Origin: Myxococcaceae bacterium
GTDB taxonomy: Bacteria; Myxococcota; Myxococcia; Myxococcales; Myxococcaceae
Direction: 5' to 3'
DNA length: 45,265 nt
Assembly (NCBI GenBank): GCA_003818285.1
Contig: RPRB01000020.1
Coordinates: forward strand, 1 to 45,265
Shown here: positions 4,990-39,750 of the stretch, in pieces
Position numbering within the stretch: the first letter of the stretch is position 1
Layout: the number at the start of each line of letters is the position of its first letter
Notes under the pieces: generated by a model
Told to the model about the DNA's origin: nothing
The model's database searches: none
Seen by the model: only the letters and a program-made list of their open reading frames with translations
Program-made: the position numbers and the translations under genes

Positions 4990-5916
4990 TCAATGCTCGA
5001 CGTGCGCGTCGCGCTCGCGCCACCGGGTGGGCGTCATCCCCGAGAGCAGGTGGAAGGCTCGGGTGAAGTGTGACTGGTGGGAGAAGCCGCAGCGGAGCGC
5101 GATCTCCGCCAGGCTCGCGCGACAATCCGAGAGCAGCTCCTTGGCCCGGTCCACGCGCCGGCGCAGCACGTACTGGTGGGGAGACAGCCCGGTGCGTTCC
5201 TTGAAGGTCCGGGCGAAGTGGAAGACGCTCAGGCCGGTCAGAGCAGAGAGCTCCCGCAGGGTGAGCGGCGCGTCCAGGTTTCGATCGATGTACTCGGTGA
5301 TGCGCCGGAGACGGCTGAGCGGAAGGGCTCCACCTGTGGCGAGCATGTTCGAGCTGCCATAGTGGGCGAGGAGGTGGGTGGCGAGAGCGTGTCCGATCGG
5401 CGCCCCGTAGGCACCCTGAGACGCGCGCGGCATCCTGAGCACCTCTCGCAGCCCGTGGATCAGGTGGGCGAGCAGCGGATCCGAGGCCTGGGCCACGGGG
5501 ACGAGCCCGGGAAGGCCCCGGCTCTTCGAGCCCTGGACCTCGCGCAGGAGTGACGGTTCGACGGTGACCACCAGCGCGTGGCCTTCATCCAGCCAGCGGA
5601 CCCGGAAGCGCGTGCCGGCGGGAAAGAGGGAGATCGAGCCGGGCTGGAAGGTGTAGCGGAGGACCGTTGGATCGTCACCCCACCGCAGCTCACGGCGGTA
5701 ACCGGCTCCGATGTTGAGGACGAGCATGTGGTGGATCAGGGTGGCCTCGCGCTCCTCTCCGGGCCCCCGGAGGTATTCCTCGAGCGTGAGATGGGGCCAC
5801 GCGTCGCCGCTCGCGGCGACGGGCTCGGCGCCGAACGGCTCGCTACGGCCCCGCTCGTCCACCCGGACGATGCGCCGTCCGGATGAGACTGACTGCTGGA
5901 CTCCGACGCTGTCCAC
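4990..5916 (-). CDS. AraC-family transcriptional regulator
   Basis: A 308 aa regulator. The N-terminal half is a cupin-like sensor (YTFQPGSISLFPAGTRFRV region). The last 100 residues are two helix-turn-helix motifs: LTLRELSALTGLSVFHFAR, then LAEIALRCGFSHQSHFTRAF, followed by GMTPTRWRE. This is the classic AraC/XylS DNA-binding domain. I chose the GTG at 5916, preceded by AGGGGAAGG; the frame stays open to 6198 but the extra residues are low-complexity and Arg-rich. The ligand is unknown, and no obvious target lies divergent to it. Confidence 0.85.
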   Translation of the reverse strand: MDSVGVQQSVSSGRRIVRVDERGRSEPFGAEPVAASGDAWPHLTLEEYLRGPGEEREATLIHHMLVLNIGAGYRRELRWGDDPTVLRYTFQPGSISLFPAGTRFRVRWLDEGHALVVTVEPSLLREVQGSKSRGLPGLVPVAQASDPLLAHLIHGLREVLRMPRASQGAYGAPIGHALATHLLAHYGSSNMLATGGALPLSRLRRITEYIDRNLDAPLTLRELSALTGLSVFHFARTFKERTGLSPHQYVLRRRVDRAKELLSDCRASLAEIALRCGFSHQSHFTRAFHLLSGMTPTRWRERDAHVEH

Positions 5917-6348
5917 CCTTCCCCTCGCGTCGAATCTCGAAGAAGCGCGGCATGCTGATGGCTTGCTGTGACAGATGTCAACGAAGTGCAGCGAACGGGC
6001 ACGACTCTGTCTCGTGCGAGGCAGTCGAGCTGCTCCGTGACGAGTCCTCTGTCGGACCTCGCGCACCGGCGGAGCCTGGCCCGGGCCACGCTCGACCGGC
6101 TCGTGGTCGAGAGCAGTCCGAGGAAGCGAGCGATCCGGAGCCGGAGCCGACCCCCCGCGCCGCGAGCGGAAAGTCAGCCTCGACGAGCAGTGCCGCACCG
6201 CGGTGGTCGCGATGCAGGGAGAGCTCGGCGGCTCCCGGGTCCTCGACCTCGGCTCCGCTCGCTAGAGGTCGCCGAGGAGCGGCTCGGGCTCTGGCGCCGG
6301 TGGGTCCGGTGGACGAGTCCGCCGGCCCACCGACGCAGATGGCGGTGT
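5917..6348. other. Stretch without a recognisable gene
   Basis: 432 bp between the AraC start and the end of the small-peptide pair. All frames here give Arg/Pro/Ser-rich low-complexity translations with no start site, family match or RNA-like structure that I could identify. Confidence 0.5.
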
Positions 6349-6456
6349 TCAGCCGATCAGCAGGGTGAGATAAGGGACGCCTACCGCGAGCACCAGGAAC
6401 GCGATCTCCAGGACGACCCGCTCGACCCGCCTCCACCCGTCGGTCTCGGTCTCCAT
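6349..6456 (-). CDS. Small membrane peptide, copy B
   Basis: A 35 aa peptide: METETDGWRR at the N-terminus, then one hydrophobic helix (LEIAFLVLAVGVPYLTLL) and a C-terminal IG. It aligns along its length with copy A just upstream: METET-x-GW-[KR], a single helix, and an LTL...LIG ending. The gap to copy A is 4 bp, so the two are surely co-transcribed. Function is unknown. The polar start plus one transmembrane helix suggests an inner-membrane peptide. Confidence 0.65.
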   Translation of the reverse strand: METETDGWRRVERVVLEIAFLVLAVGVPYLTLLIG

Positions 6457-6460
6457 CGGT

Positions 6461-6574
6461 TCAGCCGATCAGCCTAAGGGTGAGGGGGCCCAGCACGCTC
6501 AGCGCGAGCAGCAGGACCACGCTCTCCACGATGCTCTGCAGAACCCACTTCCACCCAGCGGTCTCGGTCTCCAT
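6461..6574 (-). CDS. Small membrane peptide, copy A
   Basis: A 37 aa peptide starting METETAGWKW, with a hydrophobic segment VVLLLALSVLGPLTL and the ending RLIG. A strong Shine-Dalgarno (GGAGGAG) lies 4-5 bases before the ATG at 6574. The same start motif and ending occur in copy B, so this is a duplicated gene rather than chance. It lies 140 bp downstream of the sensor gene of the ECF operon on the same strand and may belong to its regulon. No family recognised. Confidence 0.7.
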   Translation of the reverse strand: METETAGWKWVLQSIVESVVLLLALSVLGPLTLRLIG

Positions 6575-6614
6575 CGCGCTCCTCCTGGAAGGTGCCGGGG
6601 CCGGGCGCACTGCA

Positions 6615-6630
6615 CGGGGGATGCCCCCCG
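6615..6630 (-). terminator. GC-rich hairpin downstream of the ECF operon
   Basis: CGGGGG (6615-6620) and CCCCCG (6625-6630) form a 6 bp stem with a 4 nt loop, about 85 bp after the sensor stop and 41 bp before the small-peptide pair. There is no U-tract, so it may be a weak attenuator between the operon and the peptides rather than a full terminator. Confidence 0.3.
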
Positions 6631-6714
6631 CGACCGCGCGGAATGCCGTGCCTGCCACATCCGCCCAGGTGCGGCGCCGGCGACACGCGCCCCGTCGACG
6701 CGTTGCGCGCGCGG

Positions 6715-7161
6715 CTACGGCCCGGCCCGGCGTAGCGCCTGGAGCTTGCTCCGCTGCGTGTCGGAGAGGGTGTTCCGGATCCGGATCAGCAGCGTCAGGT
6801 GGGCCCGCTTGACCTCCGTCTCCAGCTTCATCACCTCCGCGGCCTGAGCCAGGGCCTTCGCCTCGTCGACCTGCGGCGCGTCGAGCAGCCGGGACAGCTG
6901 CTGGCTCGCGGCCTGGAGCTGCCACTGGAGGCGCGGGAACTGCGCCTGCGCCCTCTCCAGCTCCTTGAGGATCGCCTCCCGCTGCCTGTCCTCCAGCCCG
7001 AGCTCCGCCTGGTGCGCCATGATCAGCTCGGGAGGAAAGAGCTTGCTCCCGATCGGGTCCGCGGCCTGGGCGGGCGGCGTCGGGGGCCCCTCGGCGGCAG
7101 CGGGGGGACCGACGGCGAGTGCGAGCGTGGCCAGGAGGTTCCGGAGAGTGCGGCGAGTCAT
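6715..7161 (-). CDS. Spy/CnrX-like periplasmic sensor protein
   Basis: A 148 aa protein with an N-terminal signal sequence (MTRRTLRNLLATLALAVGPPAAA). It continues as an almost all-helical domain: LGLEDRQREAILKELERAQ, a long Gln/Leu-rich helix, and a final NTLSDTQRSKLQALRR. This matches the Spy/CpxP/CnrX 'heavy-metal sensor' group, periplasmic helical hairpins that sense metals or misfolded proteins. The ATG overlaps the stop of the upstream anti-sigma candidate. With the ECF and membrane protein it makes a three-part signalling set like CnrH-CnrY-CnrX. No Cys/His-rich site is obvious, so a metal ligand cannot be claimed. Confidence 0.75.
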   Translation of the reverse strand: MTRRTLRNLLATLALAVGPPAAAEGPPTPPAQAADPIGSKLFPPELIMAHQAELGLEDRQREAILKELERAQAQFPRLQWQLQAASQQLSRLLDAPQVDEAKALAQAAEVMKLETEVKRAHLTLLIRIRNTLSDTQRSKLQALRRAGP

Positions 7162-8971: not shown

Positions 8972-9120
8972 GGGAACCTCCCGGGCGGTGAACGTCGTGC
9001 CCGGAGGCTTGGTTGCTCGAGGGGCGCCCGCATATGACGCGCGAGCAGCGGGGGGAACCCTCCCGCGGGGTTGACGAATCCGGAAGGCTCCCAACTTTTC
9101 TGACTCGAGGAGGCGTTCAG

Positions 9121-9291
9121 ATGCCAGGTCGCAAGCACAGCACCGCTCGCAGCGGTGGGAAGGCCACGAAGAATCCGAAGCAGTACCGGGCCCTGCGCCG
9201 CAAGGGGATGCCCAAGGCGCGGGCGGCAAAGATCACCAACGCCGGGAAGAAGGCGAGCCGCAAGGGCGGCCGACGCTCGAAGAGCCGCTGA
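9121..9291 (+). CDS. Small, very basic 56 aa protein
   Basis: Starts MPGRKHSTARSGGK and continues KNPKQYRALRRKGMPKARAA, then a Lys/Arg-rich tail ending SKSR. The KNPKxYxALRxKGMxKxRAAKI stretch resembles a widespread family of small bacterial basic proteins (I believe the DUF7218-like group). AGGAGG lies 7 bases before the ATG, which decides the start over an in-frame one at 9013. The high positive charge suggests nucleic-acid binding, but no function is established. Confidence 0.75.
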   Translation: MPGRKHSTARSGGKATKNPKQYRALRRKGMPKARAAKITNAGKKASRKGGRRSKSR

Positions 9292-9341: not shown

Positions 9342-11561
9342 TCAGGCCCAGGAGAGGTCGTGCTTCGAGAGCGGCAGCGAGCGTACCCGCTTGCCGGTCG
9401 CGGCGAAGATCGCGTTGGTCACGGCCGGGATCGCCGGCGGGAGCGCGGGCTCGCCGAGCCCGGTGGGCGAGAAGTCCGTCTTCCGGAAGTGGACCTCGAC
9501 CGGGATGGACTGGTTGATGCGCAGGAGCGGGTACTGGTGGAAGTTGCTCTGCACGGCCCGGCCCTTCTCGAAGGTCATCTCCTGGCCGAGGGCCTCGGAG
9601 ATCCCGTCGAGCACCGCGCCCTGGATCTGGTTCTCGGCGTTGGTCGGATTGATCACGGTGCTGCCGATATCGCCGGCGACCCAGACCTTCTCGATCGTCA
9701 GCTCGCCCTTCTTGCTGACCGTGACCTGGGCGACCTCGGCGAAGTGGCCGCGGTGGCTGAAGTAGAAGGCCACGCCCATTCCGCTTCCGCGGGCGAGCTT
9801 CTTCTTTCCCCACCCTGACTTCTCGGCGACCAGGTCGAGGACGCCCAGCATCCGCGCCGGGTCGAGCGCCGGCGAAGGCGGCGTTCCGGGCTTCGCGGTG
9901 GGCGGTGGACCCGGCGGCGGCGAGGGTGTCACCGAGAGGAGGGCACGGTGGAACTCCAGCGGGTCCTTGGCCGTGGCGTGGGCCACCTCGTCGAGGAAGC
10001 TCTGGAACGCGAAGCACAGCGCATTGCTGCGTGGTGCCCGCAGTGCACCGGTGGGAACGCCGAGCGGCATCACCGAGGCGTCGAGCGCGAGGTCCGACAG
10101 GAACCGCGCCGGGAACTCGGCGGGGCCCATCGCCGCCGAGGGGGCGAAGTCCTTCTCGGTTCCGAAGCTGATGAAGTGGTCGCGGAAGCAGGTCAGCTTC
10201 CCGCTCGCGTCCAGCCCGGCGGTGAAGGAGTGGTAGCCACCGGGGCGAAAGAAGTCGTGCGCGAAGTCGTCCTCTCGCGTCCAGACGAGCTTCACCGGCA
10301 CGCCGGCCTCCCGCGCGATCCACCCGGCCTCGACCATGTAGTCGTTGTTGAGTCGCCGCCCGAAACCTCCGCCGGCACGGATCAGGTGGATGGTGATGTC
10401 GTCCTCCTTGATGCCCATCACCTTCGCGACCATCTCGCGCCCATCCTCGGGCGTCTGGGTGGGAGCCCAGAAGGTGATCTTCCCGTTTGCGAAGTGCGCC
10501 GTGCAGTTCTGGGGCTCGAGCTGCGCGTGGGACAGGAATGGGTACCTGTACTCGGCGGTGACCACCTTCGCCGCCTTCGAGAGCGCGGCCTTCACGTCCC
10601 CGTCCTTGCGGATGGAGCGGTGGGGCGGCTCCTTGAACAGGGCCGCGGCCCGGGTGTCGAACGCGGCGGTGCCCTGCTTCGCGGTCTCGCCCTCGTCCCA
10701 GGTCACCTCCAGAGCGCGCCGCGCGGTCTGTGCCTGCCAGAAGCTGTCGGCGACGATGGCCACGCCGCCGAGGAGCCCCTCGAGGTCACTGCCGCCCTCG
10801 ACGGCGAACGCCTTGTGGACGCCCGGCATCCCTCGGATCCGGTCCAGGTTCGCCGACTTCACCTTTCCCGCGAACACCGGGCACTTGACGAAGGTGGCGA
10901 ACTTCATCCCCGGCACGGTCACGTCGATGCCGAAGATGGGCTTGCCGGTGACGATCGCGTGGTTGTCGACCCCCGGAACCGACGTGCCGATGATGGTGAA
11001 CTGCGAGGGGTCCTTCAGCTTCACCGTCGCGAGATCCGGCGGGGCGACCGTCGCGGCGGTGGCGGCCAGCTTCCCGTAGCCGATCGAGCGCCCGGTCTTC
11101 CCGTGCAGCACCTTGCCCTTCGAGGTGGTGAGCTCGGACTCGGGGACCTTCCAGGTCTTCGCCGCGGCTGCGACGAGCATCGCCCGGCCGGCCGCGCCCA
11201 CCCGCCGCATCGGCAGCCAGTTGTTGTGCGTGGCGGCGCTCCCGCCCGACCACTGGTTCTCGTAGCGCTTGCTGTCGAAGTCGACCTGCTCGACGCGGAC
11301 CTGCTTCCACTCCACGTCGAGCTCGTCGGCGATCAGCATCGGGAGCATGGTCTTCACGCCCTGGCCGATCTCCGGATTCTTGGAGGCGATGGTGACGACG
11401 CCGTCCGGCTGGATGCGGATGAAGGCGTTGAGGACCGGAGCCGGCGCGGGGCGGGCCTTGGTCGCGGCCTCGACGGGCTCCCAGAAGCTGGAGAGGAGGA
11501 CGCCGCCCCCGGCGAGGGCCGAGGCGCGGAGGAACGCGCGTCGCGAGAGCTCGGTGCTCAC
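9342..11561 (-). CDS. Molybdenum hydroxylase large subunit (IorB / xanthine dehydrogenase family)
   Basis: 739 aa. The N-terminus is a Tat signal ([15 protein letters not shown]), so the enzyme is exported folded to the periplasm. The body has molybdopterin-cytosine-dinucleotide binding features of the IorB class, including [12 protein letters not shown] and a C-terminal [13 protein letters not shown] with the catalytic Glu. These enzymes hydroxylate N-heterocycles or oxidise aldehydes with water as oxygen source. The GTG start overlaps the stop of the iron-sulfur subunit. No FAD subunit or cytochrome c gene is adjacent, so the electron acceptor is unknown. The substrate cannot be told from sequence. 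Confidence 0.9.
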
Positions 11562-12049
11562 TTGCCGCTCCCGGTGGCTGCCGAGGCCGTGGCCTTGCCC
11601 AGCTCGGTGGCGCGGTGAATCGCGCGCCGGATCCGGAGGTAGGTCGCGCAGCGGCAGATATTCCCCGCCATCGCGCCGTCGATGTCATCGTCGGTGGGGT
11701 TCGGCGTCTTCGCCAGCAGGGCTGCCGCGGACATGATCTGCCCGGCCTGGCAGTACCCGCACTGGGGGACGTCGAGCTCCTCCCAGGCACGCTGGAGCGG
11801 GTGGCTCCCGTCCCGGGAGAGTCCCTCGATGGTGGTGATGTTCCCGTTGCCCACCGAGGAGACGGGTGTGATGCAGGACCGGCGGGCAACGCCGTCGACG
11901 AGCACGGTGCAGGCGCCACACTGAGCGATGCCGCAGCCGAACTTGGTCCCCTTCAGGTCCAGTCCGTCCCGGAGGGCCCAGAGGAGGGGCATGTCCTCCG
12001 CGGCCTCCACCGTCCGCGTCTGTCCGTTGACCTTGAGCTTGTATTTCAC
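11558..12049 (-). CDS. [2Fe-2S] subunit of the molybdenum hydroxylase (IorA-like)
   Basis: A 163 aa protein with the two-domain pattern of this family. A plant-type ferredoxin loop ([17 protein letters not shown] plus a later Cys in RRSC) comes first, then a helical domain with [10 protein letters not shown] and [11 protein letters not shown]. All eight cluster cysteines are present, so two [2Fe-2S] clusters pass electrons from the Mo site. It has no signal peptide and presumably crosses the membrane with its Tat-tagged partner. It is the upstream gene of the pair. Confidence 0.93.
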
Positions 12050-12324: not shown

Positions 12325-13608
12325 TCAGGATCGCGGGCCTGGGTCGATCTTCCAGCCGCAGGCCCGTGCACGCGCGAGGAGGAGCTCGCGCTCGCGTACG
12401 TTCTGGGCGAGGGAAGCGGCGCGCTCGAACTCGATCCCCGCTTCCTCCCTCCGTCCGAGCTTCTCCAGCAAGTCGGCGCGCACGCTGGGCAGCAGGTGGT
12501 ACTCGCGCAGCGCCGGCTCGCCGCTGAGGATCTCGACCAGCTCGAGCGCCTGGGCAGGCCCGAAGGCCATCGAGACGGCCACGGCCCGATTGAGCTCGAC
12601 CACGGGCGAGCCGGTGATCTCCACCAGCGCGTCGTAGAGGGCGACGATCCGTTTCCAGTCGGTCTCCTCCGCCGTCCGCGCGTGGGCGTGACACGCGGCG
12701 ATCGCGGCCTGGAGCGTGTACGGACCGAGCGGTCTGGCGAGCGCCTCGGCACGGGCCAGCGCGGCGAGCCCACGACGCACGAGGAGCTGGTCCCAGCGAG
12801 ATCGATCCTGGTCGAACAGGCGGATGGCCTCTCCGCTCGGCCCCACGCGGGCGCGCAACCGCGAGGCCTGGACCTCCATCAGCGCGACGAGCCCGTGGAC
12901 CTCGGCCTCGCCGGGGACGAGCTCGGCGAGGATGCGCCCGAGCCGGAGCGCGTCATCACACAGGTCGTGGCGGACGAGGTCGTCGCCCCGGGTGGCGGCG
13001 TAGCCCTCGTTGAAGACCAGGTAGACGACCTCGAGGACCGAGGCCAGCCGCGCGGTGAGGTCCTCGCCGCGGGGGACCTCGAACGGCACCTTCGCCTCGG
13101 CGAGGGTTCGCTTCGCGCGGACGATGCGCTGGGCGATGGTGGGCTCCGGGACCAGGAATGCCCGGGCGATCTCCTCGGTGGTGAGCCCTCCCAGGAGCCG
13201 CAGGGTGAGCGCCACGCGGGCCTCGGTCGAAAGGACCGGGTGGCAGGCGACGAGGATGAGCCGGAGGAGGTCATCACCGACGTCCTCGTCGATCGCCGAC
13301 TCCAGATCCGGGCGGACCGGCAGCTCGCCAGCCGCATCGGAAGCGATCTCGGTGTGGGAGCGCTCCAGCATCTGCTTCCTTCGGAGGTGGTCCAGGGCAC
13401 GGTTCTTCGCCGTCGCCATGAGCCATGCGCCCGGGTTGTCGGGGATGCCTGCTTCGGGCCACCGCTCGAGCGCCGTCATCAGCGCCTCCTGCGCGAGATC
13501 CTCTGCCAGGCCGACGTCGCGGACCATGCGGACCAGCCCACCGAGGAGACGGGCGGACTCGATCCGCCAGACCGCCTCGATCGCCTTGCGCGTGGCCAGC
13601 TCGCTCAT
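12325..13608 (-). CDS. ECF42-type sigma factor with C-terminal TPR-like extension
   Basis: 427 aa, about twice a normal ECF. Region 2 has LAEDLAQEALMTALERWPEAGIPDN and AWLMATAKNRALDHLRRK; region 4 has ALTLRLLGGLTTEEIARAFLVPEPTIAQR. The remaining ~200 residues form the helical extension (DUF6596/TPR-like) typical of ECF42, which replaces an anti-sigma factor in control. The ATG overlaps the DUF1801 stop (ATGA), and the YCII (DGPF) gene precedes it, as in the group's conserved context. Its likely target promoters are at 14522-14548 and 15287-15313. ECF42 members are linked to stress or antibiotic responses. Confidence 0.93.
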   Translation of the reverse strand: MSELATRKAIEAVWRIESARLLGGLVRMVRDVGLAEDLAQEALMTALERWPEAGIPDNPGAWLMATAKNRALDHLRRKQMLERSHTEIASDAAGELPVRPDLESAIDEDVGDDLLRLILVACHPVLSTEARVALTLRLLGGLTTEEIARAFLVPEPTIAQRIVRAKRTLAEAKVPFEVPRGEDLTARLASVLEVVYLVFNEGYAATRGDDLVRHDLCDDALRLGRILAELVPGEAEVHGLVALMEVQASRLRARVGPSGEAIRLFDQDRSRWDQLLVRRGLAALARAEALARPLGPYTLQAAIAACHAHARTAEETDWKRIVALYDALVEITGSPVVELNRAVAVSMAFGPAQALELVEILSGEPALREYHLLPSVRADLLEKLGRREEAGIEFERAASLAQNVRERELLLARARACGWKIDPGPRS

Positions 13609-13995: not shown

Positions 13996-14451
13996 TCACG
14001 ACTTCCGCGACTTCTGCTGCCGCTCGATCTCGGTACGCAGCGCATCTTCCTGCGCGCGGAGCTCGGGCGTGAACTCCTTCCCGAAGTCGTCGGCCTCGAA
14101 GATCGGCCGGATCTCGAGCTCGGCGGCCTCCTCTCCAGGCATCGGATCGGGGCAGCGGCGGGCCCACTCCAGCGCCTCGTCGATCGACTTCACCTGCCAG
14201 AGCCAGAAGCCCGCGACGAGCTCCTTGGTCTCGGTGAAGGGGCCGTCGATGACGGTCCTCTTGCCGCCCGAAAAGCGCACCCGCTTCCCCTTGCTGCTGG
14301 GGTGGAGCCCTTCGGCGGCCAGCAGGATCCCGGCCTTGACCAGCTCCTCGTTGAACTTGCCCATCTCCGCGAGCATCTTCTGGAGCTTCTCGGTGGGGAG
14401 AGTGCCCGCCTCGGAGCTCTTCGTCGCCTTGACAATCACCAGGACTCGCAT
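13996..14451 (-). CDS. YCII-related (DGPF) protein, copy 1
   Basis: 151 aa, starting MRVLVIVKATKSSEAG. The DGPF signature appears here as VIDGPFTETKELVAGFWLW, followed by IDEALEWARRCPDP. The family is a ferredoxin-like fold tied to ECF sigma factors; its activity is unproven. AGGAGA lies 8 bases before the ATG at 14451, which decides the start. Copy 2 (14773-15216) is a close paralogue made by the tandem duplication here. Copy 1 has QKML before the AEMGKFNEEL segment, where copy 2 is shorter. Confidence 0.9.
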   Translation of the reverse strand: MRVLVIVKATKSSEAGTLPTEKLQKMLAEMGKFNEELVKAGILLAAEGLHPSSKGKRVRFSGGKRTVIDGPFTETKELVAGFWLWQVKSIDEALEWARRCPDPMPGEEAAELEIRPIFEADDFGKEFTPELRAQEDALRTEIERQQKSRKS

Positions 14452-14521
14452 TGCCGTTCTCCTGTCAATTCGAGAGGTCGAGCCGGCCAGGACCGGCCGG
14501 GATCGCCTCTTCAAACCTGGC

Positions 14522-14548
14522 GACGAACCGGACCGGTGAGGATCGACA
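14522..14548 (-). promoter_or_regulatory. Candidate ECF42 promoter, copy 1
   Basis: On the minus strand TGTCGA (14543-14548) is 17 bp from CGTC (14522-14525), about 70 bp before the YCII start. As I recall, the ECF42 recognition motif is TGTCGA in the -35 region and CGA/TC-like in the -10 region. This implies autoregulation of YCII-DUF1801-sigma. Confidence 0.55.
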
Positions 14549-14633
14549 CGGCCCCGACCTTTCACGAAAGCCATGGCGATTCAACCGCTTGGCAGCAGGC
14601 TGGCCTGGAGAAACACGGGGCGGTCGAGCTCGC

Positions 14634-14716
14634 TCATCGGCGTTCCTTGCCCGGCTTGCCGCGGCGGGCGTTCTCCGCGCTCCGCGCCTTCACGAGCTGG
14701 TCGCCTTCGCCCGCAT
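14634..14716 (-). pseudogene. Remnant of a duplicated DUF1801 gene
   Basis: The first seven codons (MRAKATS) are followed almost directly by the last ~19 codons of the intact gene (VKARSAENARRGKPGKERR) in another frame, ending at the same TGA. Right after it, in the ATGA overlap, is a sigma start remnant (MSEL, then DRPV and a stop). About 100 internal codons are gone. No product is expected. Confidence 0.85.
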
Positions 14717-14772
14717 CCCGGGTTCACCTCGACGCCGCCGGCCCGCGGTCGAGCCGGCGACGTGGGTTTCGC

Positions 14773-15216
14773 TCACGACTTTCGCGACTTCTGCTGCCGC
14801 TCGATCTCGGCACGCAGCGCATCTTCCTGCGCGCGGAGCTCGGGCGTGTACTCCTTGCCGAAGTCGTCGGCCTCGAAGAGAGGACGGATCTCGAGCTCCG
14901 ACTCCTCTCCGGGCATCGGATCGGGGCAGCGGCGGGCCCACGCCAGCGCCTCGTCGATCGACTTCACCTGCCAGAGCCAGAAGCCCGCGACGAGCTCCTT
15001 GGTCTCGGTGAAGGGGCCGTCGATGACGGTCTTCTTTCCGCCCGAGAAGCGCACCCGCTTGCCCTTGCTGCTGGGGTGGAGCCCTTCACCGGCCAGCATG
15101 ATCCCGGCCTTGACCAGCTCCTCGTTGAACTTGCCCATGTCGGCGAGGAGCTTCTCGCTGGGGAGAGCGCCCGCCTCGGAGTTCTTCGTCGCCTTGACAA
15201 TCACCATCACGCGCAT
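14773..15216 (-). CDS. YCII-related (DGPF) protein, copy 2
   Basis: 147 aa, very similar to copy 1: MRVMVIVKATKNSEAG, the VIDGPFTETKELVAGFWLW signature, and an EIERQQKSRKS ending. Changes include a four-residue shortening and V/I exchanges, so it appears to be under selection rather than decaying. The Shine-Dalgarno and leader are identical to those of copy 1. It has no intact DUF1801 or sigma gene of its own, but its transcript would read into copy 1. Confidence 0.88.
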   Translation of the reverse strand: MRVMVIVKATKNSEAGALPSEKLLADMGKFNEELVKAGIMLAGEGLHPSSKGKRVRFSGGKKTVIDGPFTETKELVAGFWLWQVKSIDEALAWARRCPDPMPGEESELEIRPLFEADDFGKEYTPELRAQEDALRAEIERQQKSRKS

Positions 15217-39469: not shown

Positions 39470-39750
39470 CCGGCATCAGTCCGCTGGCGTTCTTCGGAGC
39501 GTATTGCCTGCTGATAGGGGTCCTCATCCTCCGCTCAACGTTCCTGCCCGGTTTCCTGGGTCTGCTGATGATGTTTGGTGGGCTCGGGTGGCTGACGTTC
39601 CTGTCGCCGGCGCTCGCGGGCCATCTGAAGCCCTTCAATTTCATTCCGGGGATCATCGGCGAGCTCGTGCTCACCGTGTGGTTGCTCGTGAAGGGCGTGG
39701 ACGTCGAGCGCTGGCGGGCCCAGGCCAGCGGGCCGGGGCCTCACCGGTGA
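39470..39750 (+). pseudogene. C-terminal fragment of a DUF4386 membrane protein
   Basis: It reads ISPLAFFGAYCLLIGVLILR, then FLGLLMMFGGLGWLTFLSPA and FNFIPGIIGELVLTVWLLVK. These are the last transmembrane helices of the DUF4386 family. The N-terminal half is missing. An ATG at 39409 would only add antisense of the inverted fragment. Confidence 0.75.

Follow-up and report, generated by a model that had tools for sequence, protein, structure and literature searches.

A tandem pair of apparent small membrane-peptide genes at the tail of an ECF sigma factor operon in a Myxococcaceae bacterium

Organization of the ECF sigma operon and its 3' end

The window analyzed here, a stretch of 45,265 nucleotides, is a whole contig of a Myxococcaceae genome that comprises 5.77 Mb in 502 contigs. 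On its minus strand, genes for a lipoprotein-like protein, an ECF sigma factor, an anti-sigma-like protein and a Metal_resist/Spy-like protein are followed by two small frames, pepA and pepB, and, after a gap, by an AraC-type gene (Table 1). A similar lipoprotein-like protein opens the corresponding operon in G001, the sister genome (a congener), where the operon is split between two contigs, the start of the Metal_resist gene being present at the ends of both, and in G021. The anti-sigma-like gene sits between the sigma and Metal_resist genes and overlaps both; its product matches an NCBIfam anti-sigma model with an E-value of 1.5e-4, below the cut-off of the model. The Metal_resist protein has relatives of 77% identity in both G001 and G021, and a search of its sequence against solved structures found no CnrX, Spy or CpxP. 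The first histidine of the mature protein (MAHQAEL) corresponds to histidine in G021 and to asparagine in G001; thus, metal binding of the CnrX type is doubtful for this protein.

Table 1. Features of the ECF sigma operon and of the twin frames at its 3' end (positions in the window)
Feature	Position	Strand	Remarks
Promoter-like footprint	9008..9038	-	GTCATATG-N17-ACCAAG; before the lipoprotein gene
Lipoprotein-like exported protein, 313 aa	8030..8971	-	First gene of the unit; codon score 77 bits
ECF sigma factor, 166 aa	7508..8008	-	Sigma70_r2 and r4_2 above cut-off; TIGR02937 1.3e-23
Anti-sigma-like protein, 117 aa, one membrane segment	7158..7511	-	Weak NCBIfam anti-sigma match
Metal_resist (PF13801)/Spy-CpxP-like exported protein, 148 aa	6715..7161	-	Pfam 45.2 bits (cut-off 29.2)
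Shine-Dalgarno sequence of pepA	6579..6586	-	AGGAGGAG, read from the sequence
First unit of the tandem duplication	6459..6576	-	ORF A + 2 nt on each side
pepA, 37 aa	6461..6574	-	METETAGWKWVLQSIVESVVLLLALSVLGPLTLRLIG; codon score 18.2 bits; predicted helix 3-36
Second unit of the tandem duplication	6347..6458	-	ORF B + 2 nt on each side
pepB, 35 aa	6349..6456	-	METETDGWRRVERVVLEIAFLVLAVGVPYLTLLIG; codon score 18.3 bits; predicted helix 3-34
Strong hairpin after pepB	6290..6339	-	Candidate terminator lacking a T run; -45.9 kcal/mol for 83 nt

At the same place upstream of the lipoprotein genes of the window, G021 and G001, we identified the sequence GTC[AC]TATG-N17-ACCAAG, although in one alignment of the lipoprotein-gene starts the G001 piece holds only part of it. 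An exact match occurs once each in G000, G001 and G021, always before the corresponding lipoprotein gene. When up to one mismatch was allowed, G000 and G001 each had one occurrence of the pattern and G021 had two; the same pattern read backwards, used as a control, gave 1, 2 and 1 matches in G000, G001 and G021, respectively. Elsewhere in the window, only matches with three mismatches were found, none of them before pepA. We propose this footprint as a candidate recognition site for the ECF sigma factor of the operon. A small, very basic protein (MPGRKHSTARSGGKAT...) is encoded at 9120-9291 on the plus strand and is transcribed away from the operon.

Between the Metal_resist gene and pepA there is a gap of 140 nt with a GC-rich hairpin, so read-through into pepA is assumed; the gap folds no better than shuffled sequences. 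The hairpin that follows pepB has a z-score of -3.9, and none of 200 shuffles folded as well; a scan for T-run terminators did not recover it. With respect to an accessory anti-sigma function, the gene order, the overlaps and the single footprint fit membership of the operon, for which we infer co-transcription and in which the anti-sigma match lies below its cut-off.

Duplication, coding evidence and proposed translation of pepA and pepB

The DNA of pepA and pepB contains an 82-nt repeat with 77% identity and a spacing of 118, and an additional exact 15-nt repeat with a spacing of 112, so one duplication unit is 6 nt longer than the other. The two units abut, and each comprises the ORF plus 2 flanking nt at both ends. 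The local DNA alignment between them scores 85, whereas no dinucleotide shuffle out of 5000 scored above 33, and the protein alignment, in which 17 of 37 columns are invariant, has a score reached by none of 2000 shuffles. pepA and pepB are one gene duplicated in tandem, beyond what chance would produce.

Frames as short as these are usually omitted from annotation. For their evaluation, 37 long frames from the window and one other contig of the genome served to train a codon model. The scores of both frames exceed those of 84% of 372 stretches of real genes of similar length, those of 99.8% of antisense stretches and, in either shifted frame, those of practically the whole set of 372 (a fraction printed as 1.00). 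With a second training set, pepB ranked first and pepA fifth in bits per codon among the window's 194 ATG frames of 25-60 aa, several of the other top-ranked short frames being in-frame 3' parts of longer genes, for instance those for the sigma factor and the Metal_resist protein. Competing frames over the same DNA, on the plus strand (5883-6368, 5968-6477 and 6480-6812) and on the minus strand (5978-6436), have negative codon scores; a 154-aa GTG frame that encloses pepA and overlaps the Metal_resist gene in a different frame was set aside unscored.

The duplication additionally supplies a comparison that absent homologues cannot. The 30 differences between pepA and pepB fall 12, 12 and 6 at codon positions 1, 2 and 3, and dN (0.395) exceeds dS (0.272), so the comparison of the copies gives no indication of purifying selection on most residues. 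In a neutral simulation of 30 random changes, the codon score of the other copy was kept in approximately 0.0009 of runs, whichever copy was the starting one, and a fraction of 0.00005 of the 20000 runs in either direction kept both the codon score and the hydropathy, under a simple null that takes one copy as the ancestor and for a pair first noticed for the very traits tested. The rarity of such runs suggests that both copies have been kept as hydrophobic coding sequences. Based on these codon statistics, pepA and pepB look like real small genes.

The Shine-Dalgarno sequence of pepA ends 4 nt upstream of its ATG. No such sequence precedes pepB (CTGATCGGCTGAACCG-ATG), whose start lies 4 nt after the TGA stop codon of pepA; coupling to pepA is therefore the natural reading, and pepB is probably translated in this manner. 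AlphaFold, run on single sequences, modelled each peptide as one unbroken helix, with a mean pLDDT of 88.7 for pepA and 91.5 for pepB. Most of what the sequence-only reading had claimed for the locus is borne out: two adjacent small frames with a common METETxGW start and LIG end, tandem paralogy, one hydrophobic helix per peptide (as modelled by AlphaFold) and, judging from the gene order and the family matches, a position downstream of an ECF sigma operon. The good ribosome sites that it had assigned to both frames hold for pepA and fail for pepB.

Two further observations concern other parts of the window. Two neighbouring frames at 13996-14916 on the minus strand, which we take to be a tandem pair of YCII/DGPF-like proteins, have near-identical ends (ELEIRPxFEADDFGKExTPELRAQEDALRxEIERQQKSRKS), and beside them, at 12325-13608, lies what is presumably a second sigma-like gene. 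A 60-aa hydrophobic frame at 39568-39750 on the plus strand scores well by codon usage and lacks a strong Shine-Dalgarno sequence.

Relatives of the peptides and of the operon

A profile of the two sequences found no convincing homologue in 194 other genomes of the phylum. Matches with E-values up to 0.5 were obtained in 57 other genomes (best 0.00108), nearly all of them within far longer frames; three lay in frames of 22, 32 and 45 aa, with E-values of 0.29-0.43. With pepA as the query against 60 genomes, its own included, 14 other genomes gave matches at E-values up to 10, none below 0.1. No match was found for the profile among solved structures or for pepA alone among phages and plasmids, and none of 15 stretches in viral contigs that fit a pattern was confirmed as a homologue. 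Pfam, PHROGs and PADLOC hold no family for either peptide, and NCBIfam gave only two matches, both to pepB, at chance level and well under the cut-off. A small phage or defence protein is thus not indicated by PHROGs, PADLOC, the viral contigs or, for pepA, the phages.

The closest operons are those of G001 and G021, which share the four-gene arrangement and carry none of the METET peptides after the Metal_resist gene. The sequence-only reading had suggested an undescribed family; since no homologue was found in the 194 genomes, viruses, phages and plasmids, "family" is too strong a word, and conservation of pepA and pepB across species cannot be shown from the sets searched. The pair is apparently restricted to one species.

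In G021, the Metal_resist gene is followed by a frame of 998 aa. In G001, a hydrophobic frame of 46 aa with a GGAGG Shine-Dalgarno sequence (L133, G001:C172, 2513-2653, minus strand) occupies the place of pepA, 117 nt from the Metal_resist stop codon, compared with 143 nt for pepA; its codon score is weakly positive (7.7 bits). Homology of this frame with pepA was considered and rejected: their starts align in MAFFT, but the local DNA alignment was matched by 698 of 1000 shuffles. The protein score was reached by 17 of 2000 shuffles, a marginal likeness. With an alignment so near the shuffle level, we claim only the shared position. The 46-aa frame itself had no clear relative in 91 other genomes, its best match (0.0087) lying inside a 299-aa frame.

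Across 79 loci that encode a relative of the Metal_resist protein (self and duplicate copies dropped; one further locus was too short), a hydrophobic ATG frame of 24-60 aa lies close behind the gene for this relative in two, G001 and L075. Neither is a clear relative of pepA or pepB, as judged by shuffles for G001 and by eye for L075. A search for frames with a Shine-Dalgarno-like stretch at distances up to 800 nt added three more remote frames (L028, L049 and L060). Linkage of such peptides to ECF loci in general, which had been put forward for checking, is absent. Peptides like pepA and pepB are not a regular component of such operons, and since 77 of the 79 loci have no such frame close behind the Metal_resist relative, these modules work without one.

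A DNA search with positions 5920-6720 in three genomes returned only short matches beyond the window, and the neighbouring AraC gene has relatives of only 37-38% identity in G001 and G021, so no synteny was found downstream. A gene pair at 9342-12049 on the minus strand, which we assume to be isoquinoline-oxidoreductase-like, is located upstream of the ECF operon in the window and downstream, behind the 46-aa frame, in G001, a local rearrangement.

Possible functions of the duplicated peptides

Small membrane proteins are encoded with ECF sigma factors in other bacteria. In the B. subtilis sigY-yxlCDEFG operon, YxlD and YxlE, encoded behind the ECF sigma gene as pepA and pepB are, have been reported as negative regulators; they are longer, belong to another phylum and, to our knowledge, are not tandem copies of one another. 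YhdK of B. subtilis is also longer than pepA and pepB, and we know of neither a Metal_resist protein nor tandem copies in sigM-yhdL-yhdK. Neither pepA nor pepB shows similarity to a described family in Pfam or, above chance level, in NCBIfam. The sigM-yhdL-yhdK operon, described as autoregulated, combines an ECF sigma factor, a membrane anti-sigma factor and a further membrane protein, as the operon of the window may do; according to the same source, YhdL needs YhdK for full activity, and a yhdK null mutation raises the sigma-M regulon about 100-fold (PMC6827917).

The operon, as distinct from the peptides, may also correspond to a CnrYXH-type module, its sigma and Metal_resist proteins scoring above cut-off and its one-helix anti-sigma-like protein below. 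The Metal_resist family includes CnrX; the gene order of CnrYXH differs from that of the window, and no METET-like peptides are known to us in it. In Cupriavidus metallidurans, CnrYXH consists of an ECF sigma factor, a membrane anti-sigma factor and a periplasmic sensor, and CnrX is thought to act on CnrY, releasing CnrH (PMC4598750).

We tentatively favour, as one possibility, that pepA and pepB are real, translationally coupled genes, derived by tandem duplication of one ORF at the 3' end of the operon, whose products modulate the ECF/anti-sigma/Spy-like module. One transcript would run from the conserved footprint upstream of the lipoprotein gene to the hairpin after pepB. Ribosomes would load at the Shine-Dalgarno sequence of pepA, and those finishing at its TGA would restart 4 nt further on, at pepB, so both peptides would be made together. 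With less support, each may insert as a single helix in the inner membrane, and the two probably pair with each other. Acting beside the one-helix anti-sigma protein and the Spy-like sensor in an accessory role, they would tune the hold on the sigma factor, much as YhdK does next to YhdL in B. subtilis. The data give the genes, the helix and their position; the regulatory role is what we infer.

Nearly as likely, the peptides could be real membrane effectors, targets of the ECF regulon that act directly either on the membrane under stress or on an enzyme within it, as many stress-induced single-helix proteins do. Their position at the end of the operon, the codon scores and the neutral simulation agree with this, and a dN above dS suits proteins with few sequence demands beyond the helix. 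Nevertheless, no membrane-enzyme gene adjoins them on their transcription unit. That pepA and pepB are not genes, their frames lying open in a chance duplication of GC-rich DNA where stops are rare, is consistent with the lack of homologues and with the neutral runs, in which stops arose in only about a third, so the openness of the frames says little alone; the codon scores, the hydropathy, the Shine-Dalgarno sequence and repeat units that match the ORF boundaries make this distinctly improbable. Least probable is a hydrophobic toxic pair of the type I kind, although the E. coli Ldr and Ibs toxins are also tandem, of about 35 aa or less and with one hydrophobic helix, and a duplicated pair of 35-37 aa found in one species only would suit it, Ldr-like in size and repetition, since Rfam gave no match and no antisense RNA at the locus, a scan confined to sigma-70-like promoters, a set that does not cover the types of the host, found none for such an RNA, the Shine-Dalgarno sequence of pepA is strong, and defence and phage libraries gave no match.

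A more elaborate version of the regulator proposal, which we consider improbable, is that a young, lineage-specific gene arose behind a conserved ECF operon and duplicated as an exact ORF unit to yield a translationally coupled pair of single-helix proteins, a heteromeric membrane regulator of sigma. The fast-changing slot behind the Metal_resist gene, which in the sister genome has a different small hydrophobic frame, would then be a trial site of the genus for new small membrane partners.

Small membrane proteins in stress operons are already known, and pepA and pepB add a new, apparently species-restricted instance. The finding is modest, as it concerns one species and a putative role of the pair. 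pepA and pepB mark a putative envelope-stress operon where new small membrane proteins may arise.
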